A DNA stretch of 25,044 nt from Chloroflexota bacterium (GTDB lineage: Bacteria; Chloroflexota; Anaerolineae; Ardenticatenales; Ardenticatenaceae). This document shows positions 1,866-25,044 of this stretch, one piece after another. Positions within the stretch are counted from its first letter, which is position 1. Each line of letters begins with the position of its first letter. The notes under the pieces were generated by a model. It searched no databases, was not told the DNA's origin, and saw nothing but the letters and a program-made list of their open reading frames with translations. The stretch covers positions 1 to 25,044 of the forward strand of contig DOUV01000237.1 of assembly GCA_003520455.1 (NCBI GenBank), given 5' to 3'. The translations under genes and the position numbers were made by a program.

Positions 1866-1933
1866 TAAGCGCACCTTCGAGGGTTAATTTTCAACACCTT
1901 ACAAGGAAACTTCTCAGAAAGCAGGGGCAGAGG

Positions 1934-1968: not shown

Positions 1969-2078
1969 TCTTACCCTCGGATTATTGAGAATGTACCTTA
2001 CGACGATTTCATCGCTCGCGGGGCGTCATGGCGACCGATATGTAAGCACAGTCTAGCCCACCGGCAAGGCACTCTCAT

Positions 2079-2993: not shown

Positions 2994-3006
2994 GACGAGG
3001 AAATGT

Positions 3007-3927: not shown

Positions 3928-3958
3928 TTGGCAATCCGGCCGAAGGAGAAATCAAAAA

Positions 3959-5068: not shown

Positions 5069-5229
5069 GGAGGCGTGTGGATCCTTCCTCATCTCTGCCT
5101 GCATACCCACTCGTCACGTATGACCGCTTGGGTGGCACCGGGCTGCGCCACCCATCTGGTGAGCGTGGCCAGACCCCGAATCGGTGAACCTTCGTTTCGT
5201 AGTGGTCCAACTGGAAGGGGAGAATCCGG

Positions 5230-6639: not shown

Positions 6640-6740
6640 CACCACTTGCGGCCGCCGTACGCCACCCTGGTGCTCAAGCCAACTCCAACGCTCTCGAGCA
6701 TCTCGTGTCCTGGATCATCTCTGACGCCGCGGATACAATG

Positions 6741-6756
6741 TGTGAGAGTTCTCACA
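6741..6756. promoter_or_regulatory. short palindrome abutting the FAH-family gene's ribosome-binding site
   Basis: TGTGAG and CTCACA flank a 4-nt spacer and touch the Shine-Dalgarno sequence (AGGAG 6756-6760) of the gene at 6770. A TACAAT-like -10 hexamer lies just upstream, without a clear -35. It could be an operator or a small translational hairpin. Evidence is limited to the symmetry and position. Confidence 0.25.
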
Positions 6757-6769
6757 GGAGTAGACAGCG

Positions 6770-7618: not shown

Positions 7619-7678
7619 GCTCTTCTCATCAGGCCGGGACGACGAACTGGAACCCATGGGAATGAAGAGGTGAGCAGC

Positions 7679-8860: not shown

Positions 8861-9020
8861 TGGACGCCAGGATGGGACCGAGAGATGTAGCAACCCGGCC
8901 CCCGTGCCTGCTCGCTCCAAGGCTTGAATGGCCGGCTCCTCGCCGGTCGGATCAGCTGCTGCTTTGGAAGCCAGTTTCTGGCACCAATCTTCAATCGCAG
9001 ATCGCAAGGAGGATTCAGCT

Positions 9021-10379: not shown

Positions 10380-10417
10380 ATTACGCTGTTCCAACGTGAG
10401 TGAAGGAGAAAATTGGT

Positions 10418-10732
10418 ATGCGTATCAGCAGTGCGAAGCTTCATCCCCCGGTGCAACGCGGAAAACAGATCGAGATCCTGGTGGATGGCGAGCCGGTTAC
10501 GGTCTACGAGGGTGAGACCGTTGCCGCTGCGCTCCTTGCTGCCTCTCGTTTCATTTTCCGGTATACAGACAAATATGGCAGCCCGCGCGGCCTCTACTGC
10601 GGGATTGGCCTTTGTCACGAGTGCCGGATGGTCATCAATGACGTTCCGAATGTGCGCGCGTGTATGACGCTCGTGGAGTCAGGCATGCAGGTCCAAACCC
10701 AGACCAACAGCAACGACTGGAGGCAAGCCTGA
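10418..10732 (+). CDS. [2Fe-2S] ferredoxin-type subunit of a flavin amine dehydrogenase (HcnA/LhpF-like)
   Basis: This 104-residue protein is the small iron-sulfur subunit of a three-part dehydrogenase. The cysteine pattern CGIGLCHEC followed by NVRAC gives the four ligands of a plant-type [2Fe-2S] cluster, and the upstream segment EILVDGEPVTVYEGETVAAA is the beta-grasp start. ATG 10418 follows AAGGAG (10403-10408) by 9 nt. A GTG at 10400 overlaps that site and was not used. The stop codon overlaps the next start by one base, so the subunits are translationally coupled. The HcnA, LhpF and SoxA-alpha relatives share this length. Confidence 0.93.
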   Translation: MRISSAKLHPPVQRGKQIEILVDGEPVTVYEGETVAAALLAASRFIFRYTDKYGSPRGLYCGIGLCHECRMVINDVPNVRACMTLVESGMQVQTQTNSNDWRQA

Positions 10733-12147
10733 TGCAAGAGACAGACGTTGCGATCGTTGGCGCGGGTCCTGCCGGCCTCGCGGCGGCTCGAGAGGCGTCG
10801 CAGGCAGGCGCGAAGGTCGTCCTCATCGACCAGTATCTGCGCCCGGGCGGGCAATATTTCAGGCAGCTCCCTCCCGGCTTCACGGGCAACAGCCGCCCCG
10901 ATTGGGGAGAGGATGAGGAGAAGGGCAGCCTGTTACTTCAAGGGACCACTTCGGAAAGAATCGAGTTACTCACCGACACAGTGGCCTTCTCGATTTATGG
11001 GGATAAAACCCTGGCGCTGGCCCGGCAGAATCATTTCTTCCAACTGCGGGCTCAGAAGCTGATTTTGGCGACCGGCGCCTACGAGCGGCCGGTGCCTTTC
11101 CCCGGTTGGACGCTTCCAGGTGTGTTGAGCGCGGGCGCGATGCAGACGCTGGTCAAGATCCAACGGGTGCTGCCGGGGCGGCGTATTGTGGTTGCCGGCG
11201 CAGGGCCGCTGCTCTATGTCGTGGCCGCAATGCTGGTCGACGCCGGGGCCGACGTGGGAGCCGTGGTCGACGCAGCCAGGTTGCGCCGCGGCTGGCGGCA
11301 GATCCCGCGGCTGTGGCGCCACTGGCAGCCCCTGCTCCAAGGAATGGAATATCTGAAGCAGCTGCGAGATGCTGGCGTCCCGGTGCTCACCGGACATACG
11401 ATTCTTCGGGCCGAAGGCGAGGAGAAGGTGCAACGAGCCGTCATCGTCGAAGTCGACAATGAGTGGCGGCCGGTGCCCGGCACAGAGCGAAGCTACGACC
11501 TCGATGCGCTGTGTGTCAGTTTCGGGTTTCTCCCCTCGACAGAGCTGGCTCGTCTGGCGGGGTGTAATGTTGTCTACCGGCCTGACCTGGGTGGGTTCGT
11601 GCCAGAGCATAACCAGGAAATGGAAACCAGCCTCGCAGGTGTCTTTGTCGCGGGGGAAGTCGCCGGCATTGGCGGGGCCGGCATCGCCATGGTACAAGGT
11701 CGGATCGCGGGCATCGTCGCGGCGCGACAGCTCGGCCACATCAACGCCGACGCAGCGGAAAAACAGCTTGCCTCGGCGCGCAAGGAATTGGCCGGGCTGG
11801 AGACATTCCGTGAGGCTATGAACGAGATGGTTGGGCTGCGCCCGGCCGTCTGGGAGCTGATGCAAGACGATACCATCGTTTGCCGCTGCCAGGAGGTAAC
11901 CAAAGCGGAGCTCCGGGACGCCGCGCGCGCGAGCACGCTCAGCGCCCGTGAGGTCAAGCTCCGCACCTGGGCCGGTATGGGGCCGTGCCAGGGGCGGTTT
12001 TGCGGGGATGTCATCCTCCGCATCATGGCTGAGGAAAAAGGGGTGGCGATCGATCAAATTCCAGCACCACGGGTCCGGCCTCCGGTCCATACGGTGCCCC
12101 TGGCAGCACTGGCGCAAGAGCTAGAGGAATCGGATGAAGGAGAATGA
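10732..12147 (+). CDS. FAD/NAD(P)-dependent oxidoreductase subunit with C-terminal [2Fe-2S] motif (HcnB/LhpE-like)
   Basis: This is the large pyridine-disulfide-reductase-like subunit, 471 residues long. The N-terminal FAD Rossmann motif is VGAGPAGLAAA (9-19), with RPGGQYF at 37-43. A second dinucleotide motif AGAGPLLYVVA lies at 155-165 and the FAD-contacting VFVAGEVAGIGG at 304-315. Four C-terminal cysteines, Cys384 and Cys386 (CRC) and Cys419 and Cys424 (CQGRFC), form a BFD-like [2Fe-2S] site. GGAGG (10719-10723) precedes ATG, which overlaps the upstream stop as TGATG. Homologous subunits occur in hydrogen cyanide synthase, octopine/nopaline oxidase and cis-4-hydroxy-D-proline dehydrogenase. 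In those systems the complex oxidises a secondary amine or glycine. Confidence 0.93.
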   Translation: MQETDVAIVGAGPAGLAAAREASQAGAKVVLIDQYLRPGGQYFRQLPPGFTGNSRPDWGEDEEKGSLLLQGTTSERIELLTDTVAFSIYGDKTLALARQNHFFQLRAQKLILATGAYERPVPFPGWTLPGVLSAGAMQTLVKIQRVLPGRRIVVAGAGPLLYVVAAMLVDAGADVGAVVDAARLRRGWRQIPRLWRHWQPLLQGMEYLKQLRDAGVPVLTGHTILRAEGEEKVQRAVIVEVDNEWRPVPGTERSYDLDALCVSFGFLPSTELARLAGCNVVYRPDLGGFVPEHNQEMETSLAGVFVAGEVAGIGGAGIAMVQGRIAGIVAARQLGHINADAAEKQLASARKELAGLETFREAMNEMVGLRPAVWELMQDDTIVCRCQEVTKAELRDAARASTLSAREVKLRTWAGMGPCQGRFCGDVILRIMAEEKGVAIDQIPAPRVRPPVHTVPLAALAQELEESDEGE

Positions 12148-12150
12148 GCG

Positions 12151-13284
12151 GTGAACACGATCCATGAAACCGAGGTGGTGGTAGTCGGAGCTGGCGCCGT
12201 GGGCTGCTCCATCGCCTATCACTTGGCCACGCGCGGCAAGGCCGTGACCCTGGTCGACAAAGAGGGCCCCGGCGCCGGCACCAGCACGGCCAATTTCGGC
12301 CTGGTCTGGGTCAGTGTCAAGGAGCCCTATCCTTACATGGAGCTCTCCCTCGCCAGCAGCCAGCTATGGCCCAAATTGGTCGCGGAACTGGGCGAAGACG
12401 TCGAACTGCGCCAGGGGGGCGGGCTCAAGCTCTGCCTGACCGAAGCCGACTACCAGAAACACGCCGCCATCGTCGAGCGCCAGCGGCACAGCCCGCTCTT
12501 CGAGGGGCGCATGATTTCGGCACAGGAAGCGCGCGAGCTGCAGCCCGGGGTCTCGGAAGCGATTGCCGGGGCCCTCTGGAGCCCGCATGACGGCGATTGC
12601 GACCCGGTCAAGTGGACCTATGCCCTGGCCCGCGGCTGCCAGCGAGTGGGGGTCACGTTCATGGCGCAGACCGAAGTCACGGGCTTCGACCTGGACGAGG
12701 AGAGTCGCCAGGTGACCGGGGTCTTCACCAACCGGGGGCGCCTCGCCACCCAGTGCGCGGTCAACGCCGCGGGGCCGTGGGCGGCGCAGGTGGCTGAGAT
12801 GGTGGGAGTCACCCTCGGGCTCTTCCCTCAGCGGGGGCAGATCCTGATTACCGAGCCCGGCCCCATCGTCTGTCCCCGGCCCATGTCAACCGTGCGCCAG
12901 AACGCGCGCGGCCAATTCTATATGGGGACGACAGCCGAAGACGTGGGCTTTGATTGGTCGACGACCGCAGCGGGCGCCAGGAAGATCGCCGCGAATGCGG
13001 TCAAGTTGGTGCCTGCCACGGCGCAGTTGTCGGTGCTCCGGCAGTTTGCCGGCTTGCGCCCGATGCCGCGGGACGGCCTGCCGTTTCTGGGCCCGGTGCC
13101 GCACGTCCCGGGCTATTACATCGCTGTGGGCCACAGCGGGATCACGCTCTCACCCATTCACGGCAAGATCATCAGCGATCTGATCGTCGACGGCCAGACG
13201 GACGTGCCGCTCGACCTGTACAACCCCTTGCGCTATGACCCGCACGGTACCACCGAACCGGGACCAGAGCGTACCGCACATTAG
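12151..13284 (+). CDS. DAO-family FAD oxidoreductase, catalytic subunit (HcnC/LhpB/sarcosine oxidase beta-like)
   Basis: This 377-residue DAO-fold subunit begins at GTG 12151, 3 nt after the previous stop, with AAGGAG at 12137-12142. The FAD motif VGAGAVGCSIAYHLA starts at residue 12, with an acidic ribose ligand at about Asp36. The covalent/si-face motif region GPGAGTSTANFG (39-50) follows, and the C-terminal FAD-contacting GLRPMPRDGLPFLGPV and VGHSGITLSP are present. These members remove electrons from N-substituted amino acids, giving an imine that hydrolyses to an amine and an oxo acid. As third member of a coupled trio it should be the subunit that binds the amine substrate. The substrate is not predictable; candidates are opines, N-methyl amino acids, hydroxyproline or an iminodicarboxylate. 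Confidence 0.93.
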   Translation: MNTIHETEVVVVGAGAVGCSIAYHLATRGKAVTLVDKEGPGAGTSTANFGLVWVSVKEPYPYMELSLASSQLWPKLVAELGEDVELRQGGGLKLCLTEADYQKHAAIVERQRHSPLFEGRMISAQEARELQPGVSEAIAGALWSPHDGDCDPVKWTYALARGCQRVGVTFMAQTEVTGFDLDEESRQVTGVFTNRGRLATQCAVNAAGPWAAQVAEMVGVTLGLFPQRGQILITEPGPIVCPRPMSTVRQNARGQFYMGTTAEDVGFDWSTTAAGARKIAANAVKLVPATAQLSVLRQFAGLRPMPRDGLPFLGPVPHVPGYYIAVGHSGITLSPIHGKIISDLIVDGQTDVPLDLYNPLRYDPHGTTEPGPERTAH

Positions 13285-13335
13285 GTGTCCGTTCCAGTGA
13301 GTCGGCGATCCCGCCCTGCGCGCTCCGGCCTGCGT

Positions 13336-13380
13336 CTCATTGACGGTGTGAGCCTCCACTGCAATGAGGAGGTTCACACC
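13336..13380 (+). promoter_or_regulatory. 13-bp hairpin with a competing 7-bp pairing, between DAO and SDR genes
   Basis: GGTGTGAGCCTCC (13345-13357) pairs with GGAGGTTCACACC (13368-13380) through 13 pairs including one G-U, with a 10-nt loop. An alternative stem pairs CTCATTG (13336-13342) with CAATGAG (13362-13368), using the loop and the first base of the 3' arm. The two stems cannot both form fully. No U-run follows. It could be an mRNA-stability element or a conformational switch. Confidence 0.4.
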
Positions 13381-13483
13381 ATTCCCTCGCCATCAAGGAT
13401 ACTTCCTGCCAGCCTCCCAATTGCGTTGGAATGCGCAGCTGGCTCGCATCTTGATCCATGTACTCGATCGGAAAGGCAACCCT

Positions 13484-14278
13484 ATGGACTTGGACCTGTT
13501 TGACGTACACGGCAGGGTGGCCATTGTTACCGGGGGGAATCGCGGTATTGGCCTGGAATTCGCCCGCGGTCTGGGTGCGGCCGGCGCCCGCGTGGTCATC
13601 GCCAACCGGGATAGCAACTCTGGCGAGGCGGCAGCGCAACGGCTACGAGGCCAGGGAATGGAAGTCGCCTTTGTCCACTGCGATCTCTCTGATGGAAAGT
13701 CCATATCAAACATGGTGGATAAAGTCGTGGCACGGCACGGGACCGTCGACATACTCGTGAATAATGGCGCTACTCGCGTGACCGCGCTGGCGCTCGACCA
13801 TGGTGAAGCAGAGTGGGACTATCTGATGAAGGTCAACGTGGGTGGTGTCTTCCTTGCTGCCCAGGCCGTGGCGCGGCTGATGGTTGCTCAGAAGAAGGGC
13901 GGCAGCATCATCAACATCTCCTCCGTCGTGGCCAACCGCGGGAACTTTAACCGCACCTCTTATATCACCAGCAAGGGAGCCGTCAACTCCCTCACCATCG
14001 CTCTCGCGATGGAGTGGGCGCCCTATGGGATTCGCGTGAACGGTCTTGCCCCAGGATCAGTCGAGACACCCGAAAGCTCAGCGCGGATACGCCAGAATGA
14101 GGAACTCTTCCAGGCGACGGTCGATCACATCCCCATGGGCCGCCTTTCCGTGCCCGCCGACCTCGTGGGCGCTGTGATCTTCCTGGCATCCGACGCCTCT
14201 GCATACATGACCGGGCATACGATGGTGGTGGATGGCGGATGGTCGCTTGCAGCTCGACCTATGTCGCTGTACCGTTGA
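13484..14278 (+). CDS. short-chain dehydrogenase/reductase (SDR)
   Basis: This classical SDR has 264 residues when started at ATG 13484, with GAAAGG at 13471-13476. The longer frame runs back over the hairpin region and is rejected. The cofactor motif TGGNRGIG is at 16-23, DLSD at 67-70, NNGA at 93-96, catalytic Ser146/147 and Tyr160-xxx-Lys164 (SYITSK), and the PG motif at 190-191. The C-terminus TGHTMVVDGGW is typical of the FabG/gluconate-5-dehydrogenase-like group. It would oxidise or reduce a hydroxy-acid or keto-acid intermediate with NAD(P). Oxidation of a 2-keto-3-deoxy acid before FAH-family cleavage is one fitting role. Confidence 0.94.
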   Translation: MDLDLFDVHGRVAIVTGGNRGIGLEFARGLGAAGARVVIANRDSNSGEAAAQRLRGQGMEVAFVHCDLSDGKSISNMVDKVVARHGTVDILVNNGATRVTALALDHGEAEWDYLMKVNVGGVFLAAQAVARLMVAQKKGGSIINISSVVANRGNFNRTSYITSKGAVNSLTIALAMEWAPYGIRVNGLAPGSVETPESSARIRQNEELFQATVDHIPMGRLSVPADLVGAVIFLASDASAYMTGHTMVVDGGWSLAARPMSLYR

Positions 14279-14338
14279 ACAAGCAAGCGCACAGGAATCC
14301 GGTGGGAAAGCGCGCGGTCCTGGAGAGAAAATCCGGCT

Positions 14339-14548
14339 ATGACACTATCTCCTCTCCTTACGGACTCGTCGGGGCGTATTTGTCAAGAAGATGTGCCCTT
14401 CCGCACGCGCATGTTGGAGATTGCCGCCAGCCTTCCGGACGTGATCCCGTTGGGCCGATCCACAACATCCACGCCTTCACTCAAGAGTGCAGTCCTTCCC
14501 CGGTTCATTCACGCCGAGAAATCACCTCATTATAGGAGATTCAACTAA
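14339..14548 (+). pseudogene. possible remnant of an aminotransferase 5' end, or a small ORF
   Basis: A 69-codon frame starts at ATG 14339 with GGAGAG at 14322-14327. Residues 23-40 (RTRMLEIAASLPDVIPLG) resemble the N-terminal entry segment of class I/II PLP aminotransferases, which normally continues as GRGDPD followed by a Thr-Pro. Here the expected Gly-Asp-Pro-Asp is lost after GR. A nearby alternative frame reads DP just past that point, suggesting a frameshift followed by deletion of the rest. The similarity is judged by eye over about 18 residues. It could equally be a chance short ORF in the 275-bp gap. Confidence 0.3.
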
Positions 14549-14553
14549 GAAAC

Positions 14554-15345
14554 ATGCGATCAAACAAGCTGAAGCAGGCGCTGAAAGAAGGCGGTACGGT
14601 TATCTGTGTTGGGCCGGGTGTCCCTTCACCCGAGCTCGTCGAGTTCTTGGGTCATCTCGGCTTTGACTGTATCTTCATCGACGCTGAGCATGGCGTGATC
14701 GGTGTGGAGCGGGCTCAAGAAATGGTGCGCGCGGCCGATGCGGTGGGAATTGGCAGCCTCACCCGCGTCCCGAAAAACGATCCCGCTGTCATCTTGGGCT
14801 ATCTGGAAACCGGAACCGGAGGGATCCTGGTTCCGCACGTGAATACCGCTGATGAGGTCAGGCAGATCATGCAGGCGGTCAAATACAGTCCATTGGGGAT
14901 TCGCGGTGCGCACTCGGGAACCCGAGCAGCCAACTACGGGGTGACCCAAAGTGGCGCCGAATACTTCGACCAGGCGAACCGGGAAACCATGGTCGCGGCG
15001 ATGATTGAAGAAGTAGCTGCCCTCGAAAACCTGAACGAAATCCTGCAGGTCCCCGGGCTCGATTTGTGCCTCATCGGACCTGGCGACCTTGCGATGTCGA
15101 TGGGGTATCCAGGCCAGCCAGATCACCCCGAAGTGCAGGCTCAGGTCGACCTCGCGGTGCACAAGATCTGCGCGGCAGGTGTGGCCGCCGGCACTGTGGC
15201 CGCAGACGGTGAGGGAGTTCGCCGGCTGTTTGAGCGCGGGTTCCAGCTTGCTCTCGTCAGTGCCTTGAGGCTGTTAGTGGTCGGCGCGCGGCAATTGCTG
15301 GCGCAGGCACGAACTGAGAAGTCAGTTACCCCCGGCTCGCCCTGA
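14554..15345 (+). CDS. HpcH/HpaI family class II aldolase
   Basis: This 263-residue aldolase has the spacing of the pyruvate-type HpaI family: Asp43 and His46 (FIDAEHG), Arg71 (TRVP), Glu152 (IEEVAALEN) and Asp178 (IGPGDLAMSMG). These correspond to the HpaI metal ligands and catalytic base, and the barrel segment GTGGILVPHVNTADE with KYSPLGIRG is also diagnostic. Such enzymes split 4-hydroxy-2-keto acids, or 2-keto-3-deoxy sugar acids, into pyruvate and an aldehyde. AGGAG (14534-14538) lies 15 nt before ATG, longer than ideal. Placed in the same cluster as an enolase-superfamily dehydratase, it would cleave the 2-keto-3-deoxy product. Confidence 0.93.
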   Translation: MRSNKLKQALKEGGTVICVGPGVPSPELVEFLGHLGFDCIFIDAEHGVIGVERAQEMVRAADAVGIGSLTRVPKNDPAVILGYLETGTGGILVPHVNTADEVRQIMQAVKYSPLGIRGAHSGTRAANYGVTQSGAEYFDQANRETMVAAMIEEVAALENLNEILQVPGLDLCLIGPGDLAMSMGYPGQPDHPEVQAQVDLAVHKICAAGVAAGTVAADGEGVRRLFERGFQLALVSALRLLVVGARQLLAQARTEKSVTPGSP

Positions 15346-15354
15346 GGGGCGTAC

Positions 15355-15376
15355 GCGGCGGACGTTTCCCCGCCGC
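15355..15376. repeat. 7-bp GC hairpin after the aldolase gene
   Basis: GCGGCGG (15355-15361) and CCGCCGC (15370-15376) face each other over 8 nt. It follows the aldolase stop by 9 bases and lacks a U-run, so it is at best a weak 3'-end structure. Confidence 0.3.
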
Positions 15377-15547
15377 AACCGCCAACACTCAGTTATTAAA
15401 GGAACCGTTTCTCCGCAAGCGGAGTGTCTTACCAAATATTATACGCCAAGGGCGCGACATCCCCTGCGGGGGACACCCAAACGAAGCGGTCTTGTAAGGG
15501 GACACCCCGTAGGGTGGAGACAACGCTTTGGCCATTGTTTTGGCGTC

Positions 15548-15595
15548 GCGCTCCAATTCCGCTCCCGGCTCAAGCCGGGAGCGGAATTGGAGCGC
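15548..15595 (+). terminator. perfect 22-bp hairpin upstream of the M20 gene
   Basis: Two 22-nt arms (15548-15569 and 15574-15595) are exact complements around the loop TCAA, with TTTCT after the 3' arm. It could stop transcription coming from the aldolase gene, or be an inserted palindromic repeat. The AAGGAG for the M20 gene lies only 13 bp downstream. Upstream at 15462-15520 are further small GGGGACACCC-type repeats, so the 278-bp gap is repeat-rich and contains no gene. Confidence 0.6.
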
Positions 15596-15623
15596 TTTCT
15601 GTGAGAAGAAGGAGAAAAGCGCG

Positions 15624-16988
15624 ATGGATAGAATCTTGGAACGGCTGCTGGGCATGGCGGAAGAAGCAACTGGGGAGCTGGTCGAGCTCCATCAGGCGCT
15701 GGTACGTATCCCGACGGTGAACACGGGTGCACGCGACAGCGGAAACGAGATCGAGGCGTGCCGCCTGCTGGAGGAGCGCTTTCAGACAGAAGGCATCTCT
15801 ACTCTCACCCTGGAGTCAGCCCCCTCTCGCGGCAACCTGCTGGCCTCCATCGGTGATCAGCCCAAGCCGCGCCTTCTTCTGATGTCTCACCTCGATGTCG
15901 TTCCGGTGGAAGATGAGAGTCGCTGGAAGCTGCCTCCCTTCAGCGGCACAGTGGTGGATGGAAAAGTCTACGGTCGTGGCAGCGATGATGCCAAATCGCT
16001 CGCCTCCACCGGTGCTATGACCCTGATCCTGCTGAAACGAGCGGGCATCTCACTCCGCGGGGAACTTCGTTTCCTGGCCGCGGCGGATGAAGAGGCCGGT
16101 GGACGCTATGGTATCGGTTGGTTGGCGCAAGCCCACCCCGACCAGATCCGCGCTAGTTGGGCCATCAACGAGGGAGGAGGTATGCCTCTCAAGAGGCCCG
16201 AGGGATTGGCCTATTTCATTTCGATCGGTGAGAAGGGACGGATGGAAGCGCGTTTTACCCTCCGTGGGCGGAGTGCCCATGGCGCCCGACCATGGTTGGC
16301 CGACAACGCCCTCTACAAGCTCGCGCGACTCCTCCAGCGTATTGAGAGCTACCGGCCCGAGATCGACGTGAGCCTACCGACCTTCCACTATTTCCACCAC
16401 TTCGGTATTGCCGAGAAGCCCATCTCGGCGAACCTGGACCGGCTCCTCGCGGGATTAGGCCAGCAGAACAGTTCTCTCGCGACGACGTTGACCGCCCTCT
16501 CCCGTATGTCCATTGCCCCAACCATGGCCTCAGCAGGCATCAAATCGAACAGCATCCCCGCCTCGGCTGAACTCATCGCTGACGTGCGCACGCTTCCCCA
16601 CCAGGATGAAGCCTATGTCCGTCATGAGTTGGAGAAGATCACCGCAGGGCTAGCGGGTGTCGATCTCGAGCTCGATGTGACAGCCATTGCGAATGCTTCC
16701 TCCTTCGAGAGCCCCTTCGTCGCCCAGGTGCAACGAGCGACAAAGCTGGCATTGGATCGGGGAGAAATCGAGTTGATTCCCAGCCTGACGGTCGGATTCA
16801 CCGACTCGCGTTGCGTCCGGCCGCTGGGGACGGAGGTCTACGGATTTGCACCGCTCGTCCCTGAGACGGATATGATCCGGTCAGGGGTTCACGGCGTGGA
16901 TGAGACTATGGAGATTGAGAATCTGGTCCTGCGGACGAAGATGCAAGTCGCGCTGGCCTACCTGACCCTGGGCGGTCCTCAAGGCTGA
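15624..16988 (+). CDS. M20 family metallopeptidase / N-acyl amino acid deacylase (ArgE/DapE/CPG2-like)
   Basis: ATG 15624 follows AAGGAG (15609-15614) by 9 nt. The longer open frame would translate the palindrome and is rejected. The 454-residue product has the M20 di-zinc set: His89-x-Asp91 (SHLDV), Asp121 (GRGSDDAK), Glu156/Glu157 (DEEAGG), and His423 (SGVHGVDE). The lid/dimerization domain lies at about 200-320, with RGRSAHGARPW. ArgE, DapE and carboxypeptidase G-type relatives hydrolyse N-acyl amino acids, dipeptides or glutamate conjugates. This fits a cluster that imports a peptide-like or amide-linked compound. The exact substrate is open. Confidence 0.93.
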   Translation: MDRILERLLGMAEEATGELVELHQALVRIPTVNTGARDSGNEIEACRLLEERFQTEGISTLTLESAPSRGNLLASIGDQPKPRLLLMSHLDVVPVEDESRWKLPPFSGTVVDGKVYGRGSDDAKSLASTGAMTLILLKRAGISLRGELRFLAAADEEAGGRYGIGWLAQAHPDQIRASWAINEGGGMPLKRPEGLAYFISIGEKGRMEARFTLRGRSAHGARPWLADNALYKLARLLQRIESYRPEIDVSLPTFHYFHHFGIAEKPISANLDRLLAGLGQQNSSLATTLTALSRMSIAPTMASAGIKSNSIPASAELIADVRTLPHQDEAYVRHELEKITAGLAGVDLELDVTAIANASSFESPFVAQVQRATKLALDRGEIELIPSLTVGFTDSRCVRPLGTEVYGFAPLVPETDMIRSGVHGVDETMEIENLVLRTKMQVALAYLTLGGPQG

Positions 16989-17064
16989 TTTCCTCGCGCG
17001 GCCCGGACTCGGTGCCGGTCAGACAGTTGTCCAATCTCAACACCCCCTGGTGGAAAGGGTTCGT

Positions 17065-17859
17065 ATGAACAAGAAAATTCACTGGCATCTGATGAGCTGG
17101 CAGGAGATTCGGGCGGCTCGTGAGAGCAATCCTGTCATTCTCATTCCGGCAGGAACGGTCGAAACGCAAGGTCCCTACACCTACGTCGGTGTGGAGTGTG
17201 TTGCTCCGCAAAGGCTGGCCGAAGAGGTCGCGCGAGGAACCAATGCACTCGTCGTCCCGACCATCCCCTTCGGCTATTCGGCGCTCTTTCAGGACTTCCC
17301 CGGCACCATCAGCCTACGGCCGGAGGTTGCGAGCGCGATCTACGAGGATGTAGCCCGTTCGATCTTGCGACACGGCTTCGATCATCTCTTATTTCTGATG
17401 ATGCACGTGCCGAATCAACCATTGATAGAACATGTAGCCAACAAGATACGCGACGAACTCGGCGTGCTGATTGCCTGGATCAATCCCGGCCGCCTGGCAC
17501 CTGCTGTCATGAAGGAAGTCTCACCCAACTATGCCGCCGCACGTGGTCACGGTGCCGATCCAGGTCTGTCGCTGGCCAGGTATCTCGAGCCGGATATGCT
17601 TGATCTCTCTCAAGTTGTTCCAAATCAGGCCCGGCAGGAGTTTCAGAACTTTCCAGTTGTTGATGGGATGACGCCAACTTTCAAGAACTTCCCTGTGAAC
17701 ATGGCGCTCCGCCTCCAGGATGTATCGCCGGAAAGTGGAGGGTGGGGCGACCCAACGTATGCCAGTGCGGATCAGGGGAAAGAGATATTTTCCCAGATGG
17801 TTGCACATGTTGCGGCGTTGGTGCAGGAGTTTGCAAACATGCAGACCCGCATCGGATGA
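17065..17859 (+). CDS. creatininase-family protein with altered metal-site motifs
   Basis: ATG 17065 is preferred over an in-frame GTG at 17050, because AAAGGG (17054-17059) lies just before it. The 264-residue protein has the creatininase fold signature: IPAGTVE early, then FGYSALFQDFPGTISL (69-84), as in the amidohydrolase-like creatininase/MftE family. The first metal motif, normally E-x-H-G-P-H with a later Asp, reads Glu33-Thr-Gln35-Gly-Pro-Tyr with Glu44. His36 and Asp45 of creatininase are thus replaced by Gln and Glu. The second, normally N-G-H, is MMHVPNQ with His114 kept. A third motif RGHGAD lies at 160-165. It may hydrolyse a lactam or bind a different metal, or be inactive. Confidence 0.85.
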   Translation: MNKKIHWHLMSWQEIRAARESNPVILIPAGTVETQGPYTYVGVECVAPQRLAEEVARGTNALVVPTIPFGYSALFQDFPGTISLRPEVASAIYEDVARSILRHGFDHLLFLMMHVPNQPLIEHVANKIRDELGVLIAWINPGRLAPAVMKEVSPNYAAARGHGADPGLSLARYLEPDMLDLSQVVPNQARQEFQNFPVVDGMTPTFKNFPVNMALRLQDVSPESGGWGDPTYASADQGKEIFSQMVAHVAALVQEFANMQTRIG

Positions 17860-20360: not shown

Positions 20361-20729
20361 TCAGCGCCTGCGCCCGCGGCCGATCGGGAGGAGCGCCAGC
20401 GCGAGCAGTGCGACCAAGACCACAAGGGCCAGCCGGGGCGAGATGTTGTCGGGTTGGAGCTGTTCAAGATCCAGCGTCAGGGCCAGGTTGGTCCCTGTCA
20501 GCGCGGCGAAGCCGGCAAGTGTCGCCAGGATCAACAAGCCCAGAAATGCCAGATAAGCGAGAAAGCTGAAGATATCCGACAGGACACGCTGGAGGGAGTT
20601 GCCCTTCCGCAACCGCCGTACGTTGGGCCAGATCAACAACCGCAGCAGGATTAGCAGGACCAGATAGAGTAATCCGGCGCCGCAGAGCGGCCGGAGCGGT
20701 TCCAGTCCACTGAAGGGCGGGTTGCTCAA
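20361..20729 (-). CDS. small membrane protein, three predicted helices, TTG start
   Basis: The 122-residue product has hydrophobic segments at about 16-36, 52-77 and 99-116, with a basic loop (RRLRKGN) after the first. The only good start is TTG (20729-20727), which is supported by GAGGAGG (20743-20737) seven bases before it. The TTG overlaps the stop of the acyl-CoA synthetase remnant (TTGA), which implies translational coupling to the former synthetase gene. The family is unknown to me. It is separated from the 83-residue protein by 208 bp in which I see no gene. Confidence 0.7.
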   Translation of the reverse strand: MSNPPFSGLEPLRPLCGAGLLYLVLLILLRLLIWPNVRRLRKGNSLQRVLSDIFSFLAYLAFLGLLILATLAGFAALTGTNLALTLDLEQLQPDNISPRLALVVLVALLALALLPIGRGRRR

Positions 20730-21019
20730 CGAGGCGCCTCCTCGGACAGGATGCGCCGAAGCTGCTCGTGGAGCATACGACGCAGCAATTGACCACTCCT
20801 ATCGCACGGCAAAGCGTTGGCGAAACTGGCTGCCGCCGGAATCTTGTCGCTCGCCAGCCGCCCGCGCAGGCCATCGAGCACGGCCGTCGCCAGCCGATCG
20901 TCTGAGGCGGTGCGGGCGGCCGGCACCAGAATGGCGTGGATCGCCTGTCCCCGGAAATCATCGGGCATGCCGATGACGGCGGCGTCGCCGACGGCGGATG
21001 GCGGGAGTATACTGGACGG
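20726..21019 (-). pseudogene. C-terminal remnant of an acyl-CoA synthetase (AMP-binding_C)
   Basis: The frame encodes the last approximately 95 residues of an ANL-superfamily synthetase. It contains VGDAAVIGMPDDFRGQ, then AILVPA, a KIP segment, and ANALPCDRSGQLLRRMLHE near the end. The order matches the C-terminal lid domain. The N-terminal adenylation domain (about 400 residues) is missing: an in-frame TAG lies at 21022-21020 and nothing similar is seen beyond. The catalytic lysine expected in the SGK motif is Gln here. A start at ATG 20968 would give an 80-residue peptide, but it would have no catalytic centre. Most likely it is a decayed 3' end kept because the downstream TTG gene is coupled to it. 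Confidence 0.75.
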
Positions 21020-21021
21020 CT

Positions 21022-21169
21022 AGAGAACGGTCAATCATGCTGACAACAAGCGCCCGGATCATGCAACAAGGGGCAGAGTAGTTTCTCAGATTTGCGCGGG
21101 ACGCCCGCGCAGTCGCTATCAACGGCGTCCCGGGAAGCGCCGTCGCCCTCGAATTTTCAGCCGCCTTGC
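21022..21169. other. gene-free stretch between the synthetase remnant and the RNA operon promoter
   Basis: No gene is seen here. The only structure is a perfect 8-bp hairpin, TGCGCGGG (21093-21100) and CCCGCGCA (21104-21111) over 3 nt. It has no U-run on the plus strand and only a short one on the minus strand. Confidence 0.5.
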
Positions 21170-21198
21170 TTGACAGCTTCCAGGGGCTGTGGTAAGAT
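21170..21198 (+). promoter_or_regulatory. sigma-70-type promoter of the stable-RNA operon
   Basis: A perfect -35 TTGACA (21170-21175), a 17-bp spacer, and a -10 TAAGAT (21193-21198, one mismatch to TATAAT plus a shift) occur in the right order. Transcription would begin near 21205. It faces the leader ORF and the tRNA array and is the only good promoter seen before them. Confidence 0.75.
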
Positions 21199-21229
21199 AC
21201 CGTTCGCTTTACGAAGGAGCAGCTTGTCG

Positions 21230-21346
21230 ATGATCTCTTGGCGCCCTGTCAAACCGCGCACCCCTACCCAAGGTAGGGGCGTTGGTGCGTGCCAGGGACA
21301 TCATCCTGTCATAGCACCTCAAGCGGCGCTTTCGAGGGGCTCTTAG
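21230..21346 (+). CDS. 38-codon leader ORF with strong ribosome-binding site
   Basis: AAGGAG (21214-21219) lies 10 nt before ATG 21230, and the frame ends at TAG 21344-21346. The product is basic, starts MISWRPVKPRTPT and matches no family I know. The ORF coincides with an RNA segment that can fold into a long hairpin. It may be a leader peptide, or the sequence may be a non-coding RNA whose Shine-Dalgarno-like site is accidental. Confidence 0.35.
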   Translation: MISWRPVKPRTPTQGRGVGACQGHHPVIAPQAALSRGS

Positions 21347-21371
21347 AAGTCATCAGCGGCCTGACCCCTCG

Positions 21372-21406
21372 AGGCGCGAGCAAATTCCTCTCGCGCCTTT
21401 TTGTTT
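21372..21406 (+). terminator. intrinsic terminator 5 nt before tRNA-Lys
   Basis: AGGCGCGAG (21372-21380) and CTCGCGCCT (21390-21398) form a perfect 9-bp stem with a 9-nt loop, followed by TTTTTGTTT. It lies between the promoter and the first tRNA, so the tRNA array must be reached by read-through unless another promoter is hidden. Confidence 0.8.
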
Positions 21407-21411
21407 GGCGT

Positions 21412-21483
21412 GAGCCGCTAGCTCAATGGTAGAGCATCTGACTTTTAATCAGAGGGTTCGGGGTTCGAGTCCCCGGCGGCTCA
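21412..21483 (+). tRNA. tRNA-Lys (anticodon TTT)
   Basis: GAGCCGC/GCGGCTC acceptor, D arm GCTC/GAGC, anticodon stem TCTGA/TCAGA with loop CTTTTAA, and T arm CGGGG/CCCCG with TTCGAGT. CCA is not encoded. Confidence 0.97.
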
Positions 21484-21501
21484 TTTGAAGACAACTCTTT
21501 T

Positions 21502-21583
21502 GCGGACGTGGCGGAATCGGTAGACGCGCCGTCTTGAGGGGGCGGTGGGGCAACCCGTGAGAGTTCGAGTCTCTCCGTCCGCA
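21502..21583 (+). tRNA. tRNA-Leu (anticodon GAG)
   Basis: GCGGACG/CGTCCGC acceptor, anticodon stem CCGTC/GGCGG with loop TTGAGGG, and a class II long variable arm GGG-CAA-CCC that marks Leu. It ends about 6 nt before the RNase P RNA. Confidence 0.96.
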
Positions 21584-21587
21584 TCTG

Positions 21588-22010
21588 CACACAGGCCAGG
21601 GAGCCGCCGCTGCAGGATACGCAGAGGAACTTCCCGACTCTCCGCCCCGGGCAACCGGGAAGGCTACCCCACGAAACCGTAAGTGGGGCCACCCGCCGGC
21701 AACGGCCGGGTGAGGCAAGACGGCAACAGAGAGCAAACCCGCCCGGCTACGGCCGGGTGAGGGGTGAAAGGGTGGGGTAAGAGCCCACCAGCGTCGTCAG
21801 CGATGGCGGCGGCTAGGCGACTGCGCTGGCTGAGGGAGAGCAAGGCGAGTGGGGCGGGCCTACCTTGGGTTCGCTCTCGTCGCAGCGGAACCCGTGAGGG
21901 TGGATCACACCCACCAGGCGAGGGACCGCCTCCGCGGCAACGCGGAGAGATAGATGGCGGCGCGGCTCGTCAACGAGCCGACAGAATCGGGGGTACACCA
22001 GCCTGTGGCT
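21588..22010 (+). ncRNA. rnpB: RNase P RNA (type A-like)
   Basis: The conserved blocks appear in order: GAGGAACTTCCCGACTC near 21624, GAAACCGTAAG near 21672, AGAGCAAACCCGCCCGG, then GGTGAAAGGGTGGGGTAAGAG followed by CCCACCAGC (about 21761-21792), and near the end ACAGAATCGGGGGTAC (21981-21996). CACAGGC (21590-21596) pairs with GCCTGTG (22001-22007) to form helix P1. The length of about 420 nt is normal. The RNA is the catalytic component that cuts 5' leaders from tRNA precursors. It lies within the tRNA array with no separate promoter or terminator seen. Confidence 0.93.
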
Positions 22011-22036
22011 TGCCCTTTGAGGAGAAGGGTAATCGT

Positions 22037-22107
22037 TGCGGGGTCGTCTAATGGCAGGACAGCTGACTCTGGATCAGCCGGTCTAGGTTCGAGTCCTAGC
22101 CCCGCAG
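22037..22107 (+). tRNA. tRNA-Gln (anticodon CTG)
   Basis: TGCGGGG/CCCCGCA acceptor with the T1-A72 pair typical of tRNA-Gln, and anticodon stem GCTGA/TCAGC with loop CTCTGGA. It begins about 27 nt after the rnpB 3' end. CCA is not encoded. Confidence 0.96.
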
Positions 22108-22149
22108 CCTCTGGAGTAGGCGTTGTCGTAATGACTGCATCTACTCCAC

Positions 22150-22224
22150 GGGCCCGTAGCTCAACGGAAGAGCATCGCCTTTGCAAGGCGGAGGTTGCAG
22201 GTTCGAGTCCTGTCGGGTCCACCA
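22150..22224 (+). tRNA. tRNA-Ala (anticodon TGC), CCA encoded
   Basis: GGGCCCG/CGGGTCC acceptor contains the G3-U70 identity pair of tRNA-Ala. The anticodon loop is TTTGCAA. The gene ends ACCA. Confidence 0.97.
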
Positions 22225-22228
22225 TCGG

Positions 22229-22301
22229 TCCGGGGTAGCTCAATTGGCGGAGCAAGCGGCTGTTAACCGCAAGGTTGTGGGTTCGAGTCCCACCCCCGGA
22301 G
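22229..22301 (+). tRNA. tRNA-Asn (anticodon GTT)
   Basis: TCCGGGG/CCCCGGA acceptor, anticodon loop CTGTTAA, T arm GTGGG/CCCAC. Only 4 nt after the Ala gene. Confidence 0.97.
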
Positions 22302-22359
22302 CCTCGAAGGCGTGCTGGTTGAATCTTTCACCCGGAACTCCGTTTGCAGGACTGCACCG

Positions 22360-22436
22360 GGGCGATTAGCTCAGTTGGTCAGAGCGCTTCCCTTACAAGG
22401 AAGAGGCCGTTGGTTCGAGTCCAACATCGCCCACCA
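22360..22436 (+). tRNA. tRNA-Val (anticodon TAC), CCA encoded
   Basis: GGGCGAT/ATCGCCC acceptor, anticodon stem CTTCC/GGAAG with loop CTTACAA, T arm GTTGG/CCAAC, ends ACCA. Confidence 0.97.
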
Positions 22437-22450
22437 TCGCGCGGGCCAGC

Positions 22451-22523
22451 GGGCCCTTAGCTCAGCGGTTAGAGCGACCGGCTCATAACCGGTTGGTCGC
22501 TGGTTCGAATCCAGCAGGGCCCA
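22451..22523 (+). tRNA. tRNA-CAT, probably tRNA-Ile2 (lysidine type), otherwise elongator Met
   Basis: GGGCCCT/AGGGCCC acceptor, anticodon stem ACCGG/CCGGT, loop CTCATAA. The paired first base rules out initiator tRNA. C4-G69 and C5-G68, together with the TTAGCTCAG start and GGTCGCTGG T arm, resemble tRNA-Ile2. TilS would convert C34 to lysidine. Elongator Met remains possible. Confidence 0.9.
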
Positions 22524-22526
22524 TAC

Positions 22527-22584
22527 GAGTGCCGAGGACCGAGTGCCAGGCCGGTTGGCGTCCAGGACTCAGGGACCGGCACTG
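22527..22584. repeat. period-7 repeat spacer between tRNA-CAT and tRNA-His
   Basis: Three in-phase heptamers GAGTGCC, GAGGACC, GAGTGCC (22527-22547) are followed by imperfect complements including GGGACC and GGCACTG (to 22584). The spacer can fold as an imperfect stem. Confidence 0.5.
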
Positions 22585-22603
22585 GAACTCAAGCTAACTT
22601 CGT

Positions 22604-22676
22604 GGCGACCATAGCTCAATGGCGGAGCGCCTGATTGTGGATCAGGAGGTTGTGGGTTCGAGCCCCACTGGTCGCC
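22604..22676 (+). tRNA. tRNA-His (anticodon GTG)
   Basis: The extra G at -1 (22604) faces C73, the identity mark of tRNA-His. Acceptor GCGACCA/TGGTCGC, anticodon loop TTGTGGA. Confidence 0.97.
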
Positions 22677-22685
22677 CTCCCAATC

Positions 22686-22776
22686 GGTTGCAGGTTGAAG
22701 GTTGGGCAGTGCAAGGCATTGCTGGGGCATTGCACCGGCTCCGGCATCGCTAACCTTCAACCTGGAACCTGCAACC
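22686..22776. repeat. period-7 palindromic spacer between tRNA-His and tRNA-Pro
   Basis: Heptamers GGTTGCA, GGTTGAA, GGTTGGG (22686-22706) oppose AACCTTC, AACCTGG, AACCTGC, AACC (22752-22776). Inside, GTGCAA and TTGCAC also pair. The right arm has one extra heptamer. Confidence 0.7.
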
Positions 22777-22782
22777 AAGAAA

Positions 22783-22856
22783 CGGGGCGTGGCGCAGTTC
22801 GGTAGCGCGCTTGCATGGGGTGCAAGAGGTCGCTGGTTCAAATCCAGTCGCCCCGA
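22783..22856 (+). tRNA. tRNA-Pro (anticodon GGG)
   Basis: CGGGGCG/CGCCCCG acceptor, anticodon stem CTTGC/GCAAG with loop ATGGGGT, T arm GCTGG/CCAGT. Confidence 0.96.
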
Positions 22857-22860
22857 CTCC

Positions 22861-22931
22861 GCGGGTATGGTGTAGTGGTAGCACATCAGCCTTCCAAGCT
22901 GTTGGCACGGGTTCGAATCCCGTTACCCGCT
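22861..22931 (+). tRNA. tRNA-Gly (anticodon TCC)
   Basis: GCGGGTA/TACCCGC acceptor with T discriminator, anticodon loop CTTCCAA. The outermost anticodon-stem pair is a T-T mismatch. Last gene of the array. Confidence 0.95.
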
Positions 22932-23013
22932 CTCGCGAGCCTGCCCACAGGCCTGTGATCGTTGTTCGTACCGAACAACAATTTCTCAACTATCCGCTCA
23001 GCTTCAGATGAAG

Positions 23014-23043
23014 CAGCCCGGCCACCTGCCGGGCTGTTTTGTT
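23014..23043 (+). terminator. intrinsic terminator of the tRNA/rnpB operon
   Basis: CAGCCCGGC (23014-23022) and GCCGGGCTG (23028-23036) form a perfect 9-bp stem over CACCT, followed by TTTTGTT. It lies 83 nt after tRNA-Gly and 9 nt before the IS66 target site. Confidence 0.9.
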
Positions 23044-23059
23044 ATGCAATAGCTTCGCC

Positions 23060-24615
23060 GTAACCGTTCAGGGGGTCGAGAGGAGAGAGGGAGCCGGTTG
23101 AGCAGCCCAATGAGCGTGAACGGCGTCAGAGAGAAAGGGCAGGAGCGGGCGCTGCTGTTGGCGACAGGTGGCGGCGACCGTCAGGATGCGCTCGGCAAAG
23201 CGCAAGCCGGACTCGCTGTTGGAGCCGAAGGAGCCTGTGCGCCAGAGGACGGCGGGGCGCAAGGCGCGCTCAGCGGCATTGTTGGTCGGCTCAAGCCCCT
23301 CAACGGAGAGGAACGTCCAGAGGGCCGGCTCAAGCTTGAGCAGGTCGGTGCAGAGGGCGTGGGCCTTGGTCCAGGCCGGCAGGGCGAGTCCTTCGCGCAG
23401 CAAGCGGGCGAAGGTCTCACGCTGGGACTGCATCAGGCGCTGGAGGGTGGGGCGATCAAGCTCGCCCTGTTTGAAGCGGTGCCAAAGGCTGAAGAGCTGC
23501 GCCACGACCTCAAGCGCCTGGATGCCCCAGGCAGCGCTAGCGCTGGACGTTTGCTTAATCGCCAGCAGGTCCCGTTTGAGATGCGCCCAACAGAGTTGGC
23601 GGCGCGTGACCGGCAGAGTGCGATAGGCGCTGAAGCGATCCGACCCGATGGAGCCGGCGTAGTCGGCGCCCAGCAGGCTCTGCAAGACGATGGCCCCGCG
23701 TGTGCGGGCCAGCACGAAGACGCTGAAGAGCGCGGTCACAGCGACCCCCAGCCAGCGTTTCTCGCCGGCCGGCTTCCAACTGGTTTCATCACCGTTGGCA
23801 CACGCCCTCTGCTCGACCGCCGCCAAGGCTTCGGCAGACGGTCGTTCAAGGGCCGCGCTGACCTGCTCACAGGCGCCCACCACCCCGCCAACGCTCAATG
23901 GGACCCCAAAGCCGGCCTCAAGCCGGCTGGCCACCTCACGCTGGCTCAAACGGTAGCGCCCGTTGAGCAGCGCCACCAGCGCCGTCAGCCGCGCGCCAAG
24001 CACGCCGGGTGCGACCTCGAGTGGCCGTTCAGCACGCACCACCCGCTCACACCCTGGACAGCGCACCGCTTCGTAGCGGTGCGCCACCACCAGCGGCGCG
24101 ACCTCGGGCAAGTCCCACACTGGCTGGCGCCGCGCCTCACGGCCTGGGGCTGCCGCAGGCGGCAGCGCCGCCTGGCAGTCAGGACAGTGCGCCGGCCAGT
24201 GGACATGAATCGCGTCCACTTCGCTCTCTGCCACAAGCGCCCGTCGCTGCCCTTCATGCCCCGGCTGCGCCCCGCGCTTGCGCCCGCTCTTGTCGCGTTT
24301 CGGCCGCGGTGGGGCCGAGGGTGGGTCCGACGACGGCGGACGCGATGAATTCTGCGAGTTCTTGTTCACTTGCGCCTGCAGCCGCTCGATCTGCTCTTGC
24401 TGGCTCGCCACTTGCGCCTGGAAGCTTGCCACCTGGGCGCGCAGACTCACCACCTGCTGTTCCAGGGCCCAGATATATGCCTGGGCTTCGGGCGGCAGTT
24501 GGTCGCGCACATGGCTTGCCAGGGGTGGCAGCTCCGGCAACTCGCTCATGCGTGATAGTCTACCCGCTTTTCAACCCTTGTCTACCGCTCCCTTCACGGG
24601 GGCCTGAACGGTTAC
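23060..24615 (-). mobile_element. IS66-family insertion sequence, solo-transposase type
   Basis: The element is 1556 bp. Its ends are GTAACCGTTCAGG (23060-23072) and the complement CCTGAACGGTTAC (24603-24615), 13 perfect bases starting GTAA as usual for IS66. It is flanked by an 8-bp duplication, the family's usual size. Only the TnpC-like gene is present. tnpA and tnpB, found in standard IS66 elements, are absent, which is the ISBst12-like arrangement. Confidence 0.93.
23068..24549 (-). CDS. IS66-family transposase (TnpC-like)
   Basis: This DDE transposase has 493 residues. The N-terminal segment 25-62 is a Gln/Leu-rich coiled coil, followed by NSQNSSRPPSSDPP (64-77), which is a family hallmark. 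Two CxxC pairs (HCPDC 121-125, RCPGC 163-167) form a zinc-binding domain. Catalytic residues are Asp254 (NGDETSW), Asp304 (GSDRFSAY) and Glu427 (PTNNAAERALRP), with CWAHLKRDL at 320-328. The frame is intact, so the element may be active. The stop lies 8 bp inside the left terminal repeat. No strong Shine-Dalgarno precedes ATG 24549. Confidence 0.95.
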   Translation of the reverse strand: MSELPELPPLASHVRDQLPPEAQAYIWALEQQVVSLRAQVASFQAQVASQQEQIERLQAQVNKNSQNSSRPPSSDPPSAPPRPKRDKSGRKRGAQPGHEGQRRALVAESEVDAIHVHWPAHCPDCQAALPPAAAPGREARRQPVWDLPEVAPLVVAHRYEAVRCPGCERVVRAERPLEVAPGVLGARLTALVALLNGRYRLSQREVASRLEAGFGVPLSVGGVVGACEQVSAALERPSAEALAAVEQRACANGDETSWKPAGEKRWLGVAVTALFSVFVLARTRGAIVLQSLLGADYAGSIGSDRFSAYRTLPVTRRQLCWAHLKRDLLAIKQTSSASAAWGIQALEVVAQLFSLWHRFKQGELDRPTLQRLMQSQRETFARLLREGLALPAWTKAHALCTDLLKLEPALWTFLSVEGLEPTNNAAERALRPAVLWRTGSFGSNSESGLRFAERILTVAATCRQQQRPLLPFLSDAVHAHWAAQPAPSLLSTP

Positions 24616-24803: not shown

Positions 24804-24883
24804 GAGGGGATCTGGATCGCGAAGGGCACGAAAGAGCGCGAAAGACACGAAAAACGGCGGTTCATGTTCGTGCCTTTCGCGTC
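24804..24883. repeat. 80-bp repeat, copy 1
   Basis: It begins GAGGGGATCTGGATCGCGAAG and contains purine-rich GCGAAAGACACGAAAAACG followed by its near-complement TTCGTGCCTTTCGCGTC, so each unit can fold on itself. The second copy starts 162 bp later. No protein coding is evident. Confidence 0.85.
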
Positions 24884-24965
24884 CTTTCGTGCCGTTCGTG
24901 CTTCAGGGGCCTTCACATCGTCGTTTATGGTCGCTTCGATCGGGGTGCCCAACTGACCGGGCGAC

Positions 24966-25044
24966 GAGGGGATCTGGATCGCGAAGAACACGGAAGAGCG
25001 CGAAAGACACGAAAAACGGCGGTTATTTTCGTGCCTTTCGCGTC
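24966..25044. repeat. 80-bp repeat, copy 2 (cut by window edge)
   Basis: This stretch is nearly identical to 24804-24883 over 79 bp: it differs at a few bases around 24987-24993 and in the loop, where it is one base shorter. Copy 1 goes on as CTTTCGTGCCGTTCG, so copy 2 probably continues past the window. Confidence 0.85.

Follow-up and report, generated by a model that had tools for sequence, protein, structure and literature searches.

A Chloroflexota-type RNase P RNA with a rewritten helix P4, encoded within a run of tRNA genes

RNase P RNA genes (rnpB) that lie among the tRNA genes whose transcripts they help to process raise the question of whether the RNA is a functional one, and of whether it is made and released as part of a tRNA precursor. 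We addressed this question in a Chloroflexota contig. The window, by which we mean the whole stretch of 25,044 nucleotides that was analysed, carries ten tRNA genes, all on the forward strand at 21411-22932 (ARAGORN, with Rfam for part of them), of which tRNA-Lys and tRNA-Leu precede rnpB and eight follow it (table 1). We regard it as highly probable, on comparison of sequences, that 21590-22007 encodes a Chloroflexota-type RNase P RNA in which three base pairs of helix P4 are rewritten, and that it is part of a ten-tRNA precursor.

The RNase P RNA gene and its surroundings in the window

The gene is delimited by the two strands of a perfect seven-pair helix P1, CACAGGC at 21590-21596 with GCCUGUG at 22001-22007. 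The gap between P1 and tRNA-Leu is 4 nt and that between P1 and tRNA-Gln 29 nt, close to the 6 and 27 nt given in the original prediction. At the Rfam gathering thresholds (cut-off 100 bits) RF00010 gives no match anywhere in the window, while at a lax threshold it aligns solely to the specificity domain (S-domain), with 72.5 bits against the cut-off of 100 and an E value of 6.5e-22; the part not recognised by Rfam is the C-domain. The covariance search that had been put forward as a means to reject the gene is thus formally divided in its outcome. Since 30 variant relatives exceed the RF00010 cut-off, the sub-threshold score of the window reflects a limit of the model. One relative (L059) matches the whole model (positions 1-367, 127.1 bits), most helices covary over 92 sequences (RNAalifold, in the columns present in the window), and the fold of 21585-22036 beats those of 100 shuffles (z -4.7). 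Thus, the gene is rnpB, and the RNase P RNA predicted between tRNA-Leu and tRNA-Gln is real. Helices P1, P2, P3 and P5 are present in the window RNA (P2 by eye), as are the S-domain modules GGGUGAAA/GUAAGAG, and the extra hairpin downstream of P2 is presumably P19-like.

Table 1. Features of the tRNA-rnpB region in window coordinates
Feature	Position	Strand	Basis or remark
Promoter-like site	21034-21006	-	Consensus scan
Promoter-like site TTGACA-17-TAAGAT	21170-21198	+	Consensus match only; the lone + strand one upstream of the tRNA run
Terminator-like hairpin and U-tract just before tRNA-Lys	21371-21407	+	Outside the consensus scan (loop too long)
tRNA-Lys(ttt)	21411-21484	+	ARAGORN, Rfam
tRNA-Leu(gag)	21501-21585	+	ARAGORN; Rfam 21502-21583
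rnpB, P1 to P1	21590-22007	+	RF00010, fold, covariation; true transcript ends may differ
P2 5' strand GCCGCC, partner 21956-21961	21603-21608	+	By eye
P3 hairpin CUGC...GCAG	21610-21624	+	Fold and covariation
P4 5' strand AAC-U-[U69]-CCCGA, rewritten, bulged U at 21632	21629-21637	+	Pattern and covariation
Specificity domain, ordinary, RF00010 positions 111-207	21723-21818	+	RF00010
P15-like stem with conserved bulge (U)GG 21850-21852	21844-21881	+	Covariation
Extra hairpin between P2 3' strand and J2/4	21963-21980	+	By eye; paired in fold
P4 3' strand UCGGGGGU, rewritten in register with 5' strand	21987-21994	+	Covariation
rnpB trailer / tRNA-Gln leader, 29 nt, small hairpin, at most 4 T per 8 nt	22008-22036	+	Fold
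tRNA-Gln(ctg)	22037-22109	+	ARAGORN; Rfam 22037-22107
tRNA-Ala(tgc), Asn(gtt), Val(tac), Met(cat), His(gtg), Pro(ggg), Gly(tcc)	22150-22932	+	ARAGORN
Terminator-like hairpin and T-run, end of proposed transcript	23019-23036	+	1 found vs 1.7 in shuffles, weak alone

A consensus scan of 20700-23100 gave two promoter-like sites, one per strand, against 0.2 in shuffles, and no promoter-like or terminator-like site between tRNA-Leu and tRNA-Gln, in agreement with the prediction that rnpB lies in the tRNA run without a promoter or terminator of its own. The run thus has the properties of a tRNA-punctuated polycistron, namely a common strand, short gaps and the lack of internal promoter-like or terminator-like sites. 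Its promoter is uncertain because a terminator-like hairpin, possibly an attenuator or the end of a small RNA, separates the forward promoter-like site from tRNA-Lys.

Several further observations concern the surroundings of the run. The leader from the promoter-like site to tRNA-Lys (21205-21410) is structured (z -4.27), ends in the terminator-like hairpin and holds a short reading frame preceded by AAGGAG (21230-21346; by eye). It could serve the attenuation of the tRNA-rnpB transcript or be a separate small RNA; Rfam returned three matches on 21050-21415, all far below their cut-offs. Right after the run follows an IS66-family transposase (23068-24549), and a stretch from about 24810 is repeated near 24970, at the edge of the window (24810-25044; by eye). 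At 177-17859 the window carries catabolic and transport genes, including a peptide-type ABC transporter, a mandelate racemase-like protein, MmgE/PrpD, amidohydrolases, an M20 peptidase and a creatininase.

Helix P4 and the putative CCA-binding strand

The original prediction was right on the arrangement of the genes and overlooked the core of the RNA. As judged from the aligned sequences, P4, the active-site and most conserved helix, is rewritten with matched strands in one bacterial group. In the reference numbering of E. coli rnpB, A67-U becomes C67-G, G68-C becomes U/C68-G/A and G72-C becomes C72-G. The window P4 reads AACUUCCCGA / UCGGGGGU, and the bacterial P4 sequence AAGUCCG is absent there. 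Both strands were read in 92 sequences, the window and 91 from genomes of the class draw described below, and all 92 are variant with full pairing: pairs 67 and 72 are C-G in every one, and pair 68 is U-G in 54, U-A in 28 and C-G in 10, but never C-A. The canonical rows (n = 40; 39 of the class draw plus G002) have A67, G68 and G72 in 40/40 each, with U opposite 67 in 40/40 and C opposite 72 in 39/40. The bulged U69 and the flanks GAGGAA and ACAGAA are at least 95% conserved in both groups, P4 between its two ends with the bulged U forms in 92/92, and RNAalifold over the 92 rows draws the rewritten P4 unprompted.

The pairing was evaluated on a 69-row alignment (47/92 variants and 22/40 canonical rows). 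Every one of its 552 P4 cells is paired, and a change on both sides is seen at five of the eight pairs. None of 500 shuffles attains either the percentage paired or the 90 cells changed on both sides, and P4 registers slid along the same alignment pair at 22-52%. Two other measures were not above shuffles, namely the number of pairs with a both-side change (reached by 276/500) and of extra pair types (473/500). A few loci display other P4 states: L127 (G185) has an A74-C mismatch, L214 (G071) adds a change of pair 73 to A-U on top of the variant P4, and L329 (G366) carries CGUCCG with the matching 3' G, a one-pair intermediate in which pair 67 alone is C-G.

A second region departs from the canonical RNA. 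The first six pairs of the P15-like stem are formed in 92/92 sequences, and its bulge has two fixed G (21851 and 21852 in the window; 92/92) preceded by U in 75/92. The motif GGUAGG, counted anywhere in the sequence, is found in 32/40 canonical rows vs 19/92 variants. The (U)GG bulge of the P15 stem perhaps replaces the canonical L15 GGUAGG strand, the GGU of which pairs with tRNA CCA; the CCA-binding strand may have moved in the variants.

Compared with class A (RF00010), the variant RNAs share the S-domain, the P1-P5 plan, J3/4 GAGGAA, J2/4 ACAGAA, the bulged U69 and the G opposite C70/C71, but differ in P4 pairs 67, 68 and 72, in the apparent replacement of L15 GGUAGG by the P15 (U)GG bulge, in extra hairpins and in mostly scoring under the Rfam cut-off. 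The all-domain consensus leaves positions 67 and 68 open since eukaryotes vary there, so that the surprise at these positions is one for Bacteria. We take E. coli A67 and G68 to be the counterparts, aligned by the bulged U, of A50 and G51 in the RNase P RNA of Thermotoga maritima, and the phosphates of A50 and G51 are described as binding metals. Two metal-site base pairs and a third would thus be swapped in a whole lineage, culturable and harmless bacteria included, and the rewritten P4 offers a natural test of whether bacterial catalysis depends on the bases or just on the backbone and the bulged U.

Variant RNase P RNAs in Anaerolineae and other Chloroflexota

With the M20 peptidase of the window (15528-16988) as query, 21 loci were retrieved from named genomes, 17 of them carrying labels of Chloroflexota groups. 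A bin labelled deltaproteobacterium heads the list, followed by RI_153, an unlabelled bacterium, and metagenome bins make up the majority of the named relatives. Three of these genomes were searched for RNase P RNA. Those of RI_153 (G001) and of a bin labelled Anaerolineae (G003) score 89.7 and 92 bits, share the odd P4 and adjoin tRNAs, while G002, also labelled Anaerolineae, has a canonical RNase P RNA (281.2 bits). The class draw consists of 249 genomes from the class of G001, which we call Anaerolineae because the draw includes G003, so labelled. In an rnpB tree that includes 24 of the 28 outside-class loci (four lacking the P4 3' strand were dropped), the window groups with L109-L114 with support 100, which together with the M20 peptidase matches places it among the variants.

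RF00010 matches 215 of the 249 class genomes at E 1e-6, with 148 over the cut-off and 67 with matches solely under it; standard models, and likewise P4-based searches, thus overlook rnpB in many genomes. Among the matches listed (at least 100 bits) the scores are bimodal, none falling between 131.3 and 194.4 bits. The rewritten 5' strand, GAGGAAC[UC]UCCCGACU, is carried by 30/30 rows at 100.0-131.3 bits, and GAGGAAAGUCCG by ten of the eleven lowest canonical rows fetched. The pattern GAGGAACNTCCCGACT occurs in 97/249 class genomes and its reversed control in 2. Two of these matches are judged to be chance (G225 and G170, the latter solely by its canonical score and an odd base), and two further genomes, G094 and G071, differ by one more base in P4 or its 5' flank, which leaves the number of variant class genomes at about 97. 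The set read on both strands comprises 91 of the 95 pattern genomes and leaves out L127 (mismatch), L099 (contig edge), G073 and G188. Neither type was seen in 32/249 class genomes; G027 and G164 hold canonical pieces at contig edges.

In the wider phylum, GAGGAACNTCCCGACT was found in 41/400 genomes and the reversed control in 5. Four of the 41 were known from the class, 20 were newly confirmed on both strands, five are judged to be chance matches (G225, G443, G479, G535 and G436) and 12 make up the remainder. The rpoB sequences from 19 of the 20 outside-class variants group with two Herpetosiphon-like genomes in a single clade (support 100) that is separate from the class. Four Herpetosiphon-like genomes carry AGAGGCAACUUCCCGA with CCAGAAUCGGGGGUA, that is, the same rewritten pairs with changed flanks. 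At 30 loci from other phylum genomes the P4 5' strand is AGUCCG in 24, AGUCCA in five and CGUCCG in one; the five AGUCCA loci have G72 changed to A and retain A67 and G68. A scan of viral contigs for the P4 pattern gave 0 matches.

On a reduced rpoB set of 49 taxa the variant label requires five changes within the class, two of them forced by well-supported branches, yet a single variant clade is not rejected on the same set (AU p 0.161). Thus, we claim neither single descent nor transfer. As a separate observation, rpoB shows a split PF00562 in nearly all class genomes and in G260, and an undivided one in most of the other genomes tested (loci L267-L308), pointing to a lineage insertion.

Departures from the type A RNA have been described before. 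Some Chloroflexi, members of the same phylum, have an RNase P RNA of type C that likewise departs from type A (PMC4919922). Bcheck is reported to give only partial predictions for two Roseiflexus and for Chloroflexus aggregans (PMC2996960), which fits the present findings. Some RNase P RNAs of the CPR are likewise detected only below the Rfam thresholds, and the UGG motif is absent in 23/35; their oddities differ from ours in being missing or extended helices, rewritten P4 pairs going unmentioned in the parts consulted (PMC8172020). A search of titles and abstract beginnings, with few subscription papers covered, returned no description of altered P4 pairs in Chloroflexota, nor of a bacterial rnpB located within a tRNA operon.

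tRNA linkage, proposed maturation and protein partners

The position of rnpB beside its substrates is common among the variants. A same-strand tRNA lies within 300 nt of the P4-to-P4 core in 82/91 variant loci (the window left out), downstream only in 55, upstream only in 10 and on both sides in 17. The remaining nine comprise four with a tmRNA directly downstream, two at contig edges and three that stand alone although more than 2 kb was covered to either side (L086, L164 and L167), so that 86/91 loci have a tRNA or tmRNA on the same strand at a distance of up to about 300 nt. At canonical rnpB a tRNA or tmRNA was found in the stretch read at 0/41 loci, a non-random set made up of the 30 best-scoring, G002 and ten of the lowest-scoring, with several contigs ending near the gene. 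The survey of rnpB neighbours in relatives thus upholds the suggestion that the arrangement is clade-specific. At least six neighbourhoods occur: Leu-Ala-Gly-Phe-Gln-His, Arg-rnpB-Met-Trp, Lys-rnpB-Ala-Val, Lys-rnpB, large arrays and tmRNA. Four loci (L058, L061, L062 and L063) show rnpB, then tmRNA, then two tRNA-Met, all RNase P substrates; L136 and L137 have rnpB in very long arrays, where 18 and 19 tRNAs follow it within the sequence covered. At L075 a 6S RNA (RF00013, 65.9 bits; 2102-2279) lies upstream of tRNA-Lys and rnpB, the sole case among nine loci scanned.

With P1 taken at each locus from an automatic best-stem search, which may be wrong for single loci, the median gap from P1 is 29 nt to the downstream tRNA (4-247, n = 73) and 17 nt to the upstream tRNA (4-61, n = 28), the window being counted in both. 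Where an upstream tRNA is present, a sigma-70-like site occurs in the 120 nt before rnpB in 0/28 loci, these 120 nt being largely tRNA gene, and promoter-like sites are absent between that tRNA and rnpB; in 25/28 of these loci (window counted) the 300 nt ahead of the first tRNA contain a promoter-like site. Terminator hairpins precede the first tRNA in 9/28 tRNA-first loci (window included) vs 0/63 rnpB-first loci.

These data bear on how the RNA would mature. The pairing of P4, its flanks GAGGAA and ACAGAA and the metal-binding bulged U69 are retained despite the rewritten pairs, and the RNA would act as an ordinary RNase P with RnpA. In a scheme that follows from known tRNA processing, rnpB would be transcribed within the ten-tRNA precursor, its 5' side would be freed by 3' processing of tRNA-Leu and its 3' side by RNase P, in trans or in cis, cutting the 5' end of tRNA-Gln (22036/22037), and an exonuclease would trim the 29-nt trailer. 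Release of rnpB from the tRNA precursor is likely, which would provide, in bacteria, a natural example of an RNase P RNA that RNase P itself probably frees from among its own tRNA substrates. The transcript may also cleave itself, and the supply of RNase P may be coupled to that of tRNA through feedback. As a precedent for RNase P RNA among tRNAs, the yeast mitochondrial RPM1 is listed as 'fMet, RPM1, Pro' under one promoter (PMC3797045). The likeness lies in the joint transcription unit of RNase P RNA and tRNAs; the case differs in being organellar and of unrelated origin, and in that RPM1 is described as further fragmented (PMC3797045).

The strongest competing explanation, to which we would give close to an even chance, is that rnpB lies among tRNAs simply through descent and because tRNA runs make convenient transcription units, the setting serving neither coupling nor self-release. 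In its favour, the two traits come apart outside the class: a tRNA lies near the variant P4 in only 1/20 outside-class loci and in 0/4 of the Herpetosiphon type, that is, the altered P4 has no tRNA neighbour in 19/20 and 4/4, and a canonical P4 does have one in 2/27 measurable loci of the 30 from other phylum genomes (L326 and L338). Furthermore, rnpB comes first in 63/91 variant loci (the window among them) that have 150 nt or more of upstream sequence, and a sigma-70-like site lies within 120 nt before it in 52/64 of the loci without an upstream tRNA. Nevertheless, the six or more neighbourhoods all put rnpB beside a same-strand RNase P substrate, a regularity not to be expected from descent alone if rnpB has changed its place. 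The linkage and the P4 change are tied within the class and separable outside it, and an altered P4 was for this reason rejected as the cause of the linkage. In a more far-reaching scenario, which we advance tentatively and hold to be possible rather than probable, two Chloroflexota classes would have a separate RNase P RNA type in which P4 and the CCA-binding loop were rewritten together and the use of metal ions and substrate changed, and one branch, inside tRNA operons, would make the first cut itself, so that its maturation needs its own activity.

Whether the variant is the RNase P of the cell can be judged from the rest of the genome. The protein subunit gene rnpA is present in 59/60 variant and 20/20 canonical genomes tested, a set apart from the window's own genome, and HARP exceeds its cut-off in 1/60 and 0/20, respectively; seven further weak HARP matches (five variant, two canonical) span just a short end of the profile. 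No RF00010 match above 131.3 bits exists in any confirmed variant genome of the 249-genome class draw. The variant RNA is very probably a working RNase P catalyst, because rnpA is kept, HARP is rare and high-scoring RF00010 matches are lacking in variant genomes. A decaying or specialised paralogue in a cell that uses another RNase P would agree with the weak Rfam score and the changed conserved bases, but is very improbable given these gene counts, the covariation of most helices, and the fact that among the P4-pattern genomes only the chance matches G170 and G225 exceed 131.3 bits. That the P4 pattern is an artefact of alignment or assembly, as the many metagenome bins among the named relatives might suggest, is barely credible, since it also occurs in single-contig genomes and both strands change together in 92/92.

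The same counts dispose of two candidate causes of relaxed constraint on the RNA, a protein-only RNase P and the loss of rnpA. A co-change of RnpA with P4 was also considered. When 24 variant and 6 canonical RnpA proteins are compared at the sites where each group is uniform to 75% or more, a single difference appears, immediately behind the RNR motif, with R in 18/24 variant vs L in 6/6 canonical proteins. This site is too weak to use. G073 and G098 gave no RF00010 match at E 1e-6, G098 yielding a weak match later. The one HARP-like protein-only RNase P over the cut-off (158.7 bits) is encoded in the variant genome of L198 (G054), alongside the variant RNA.
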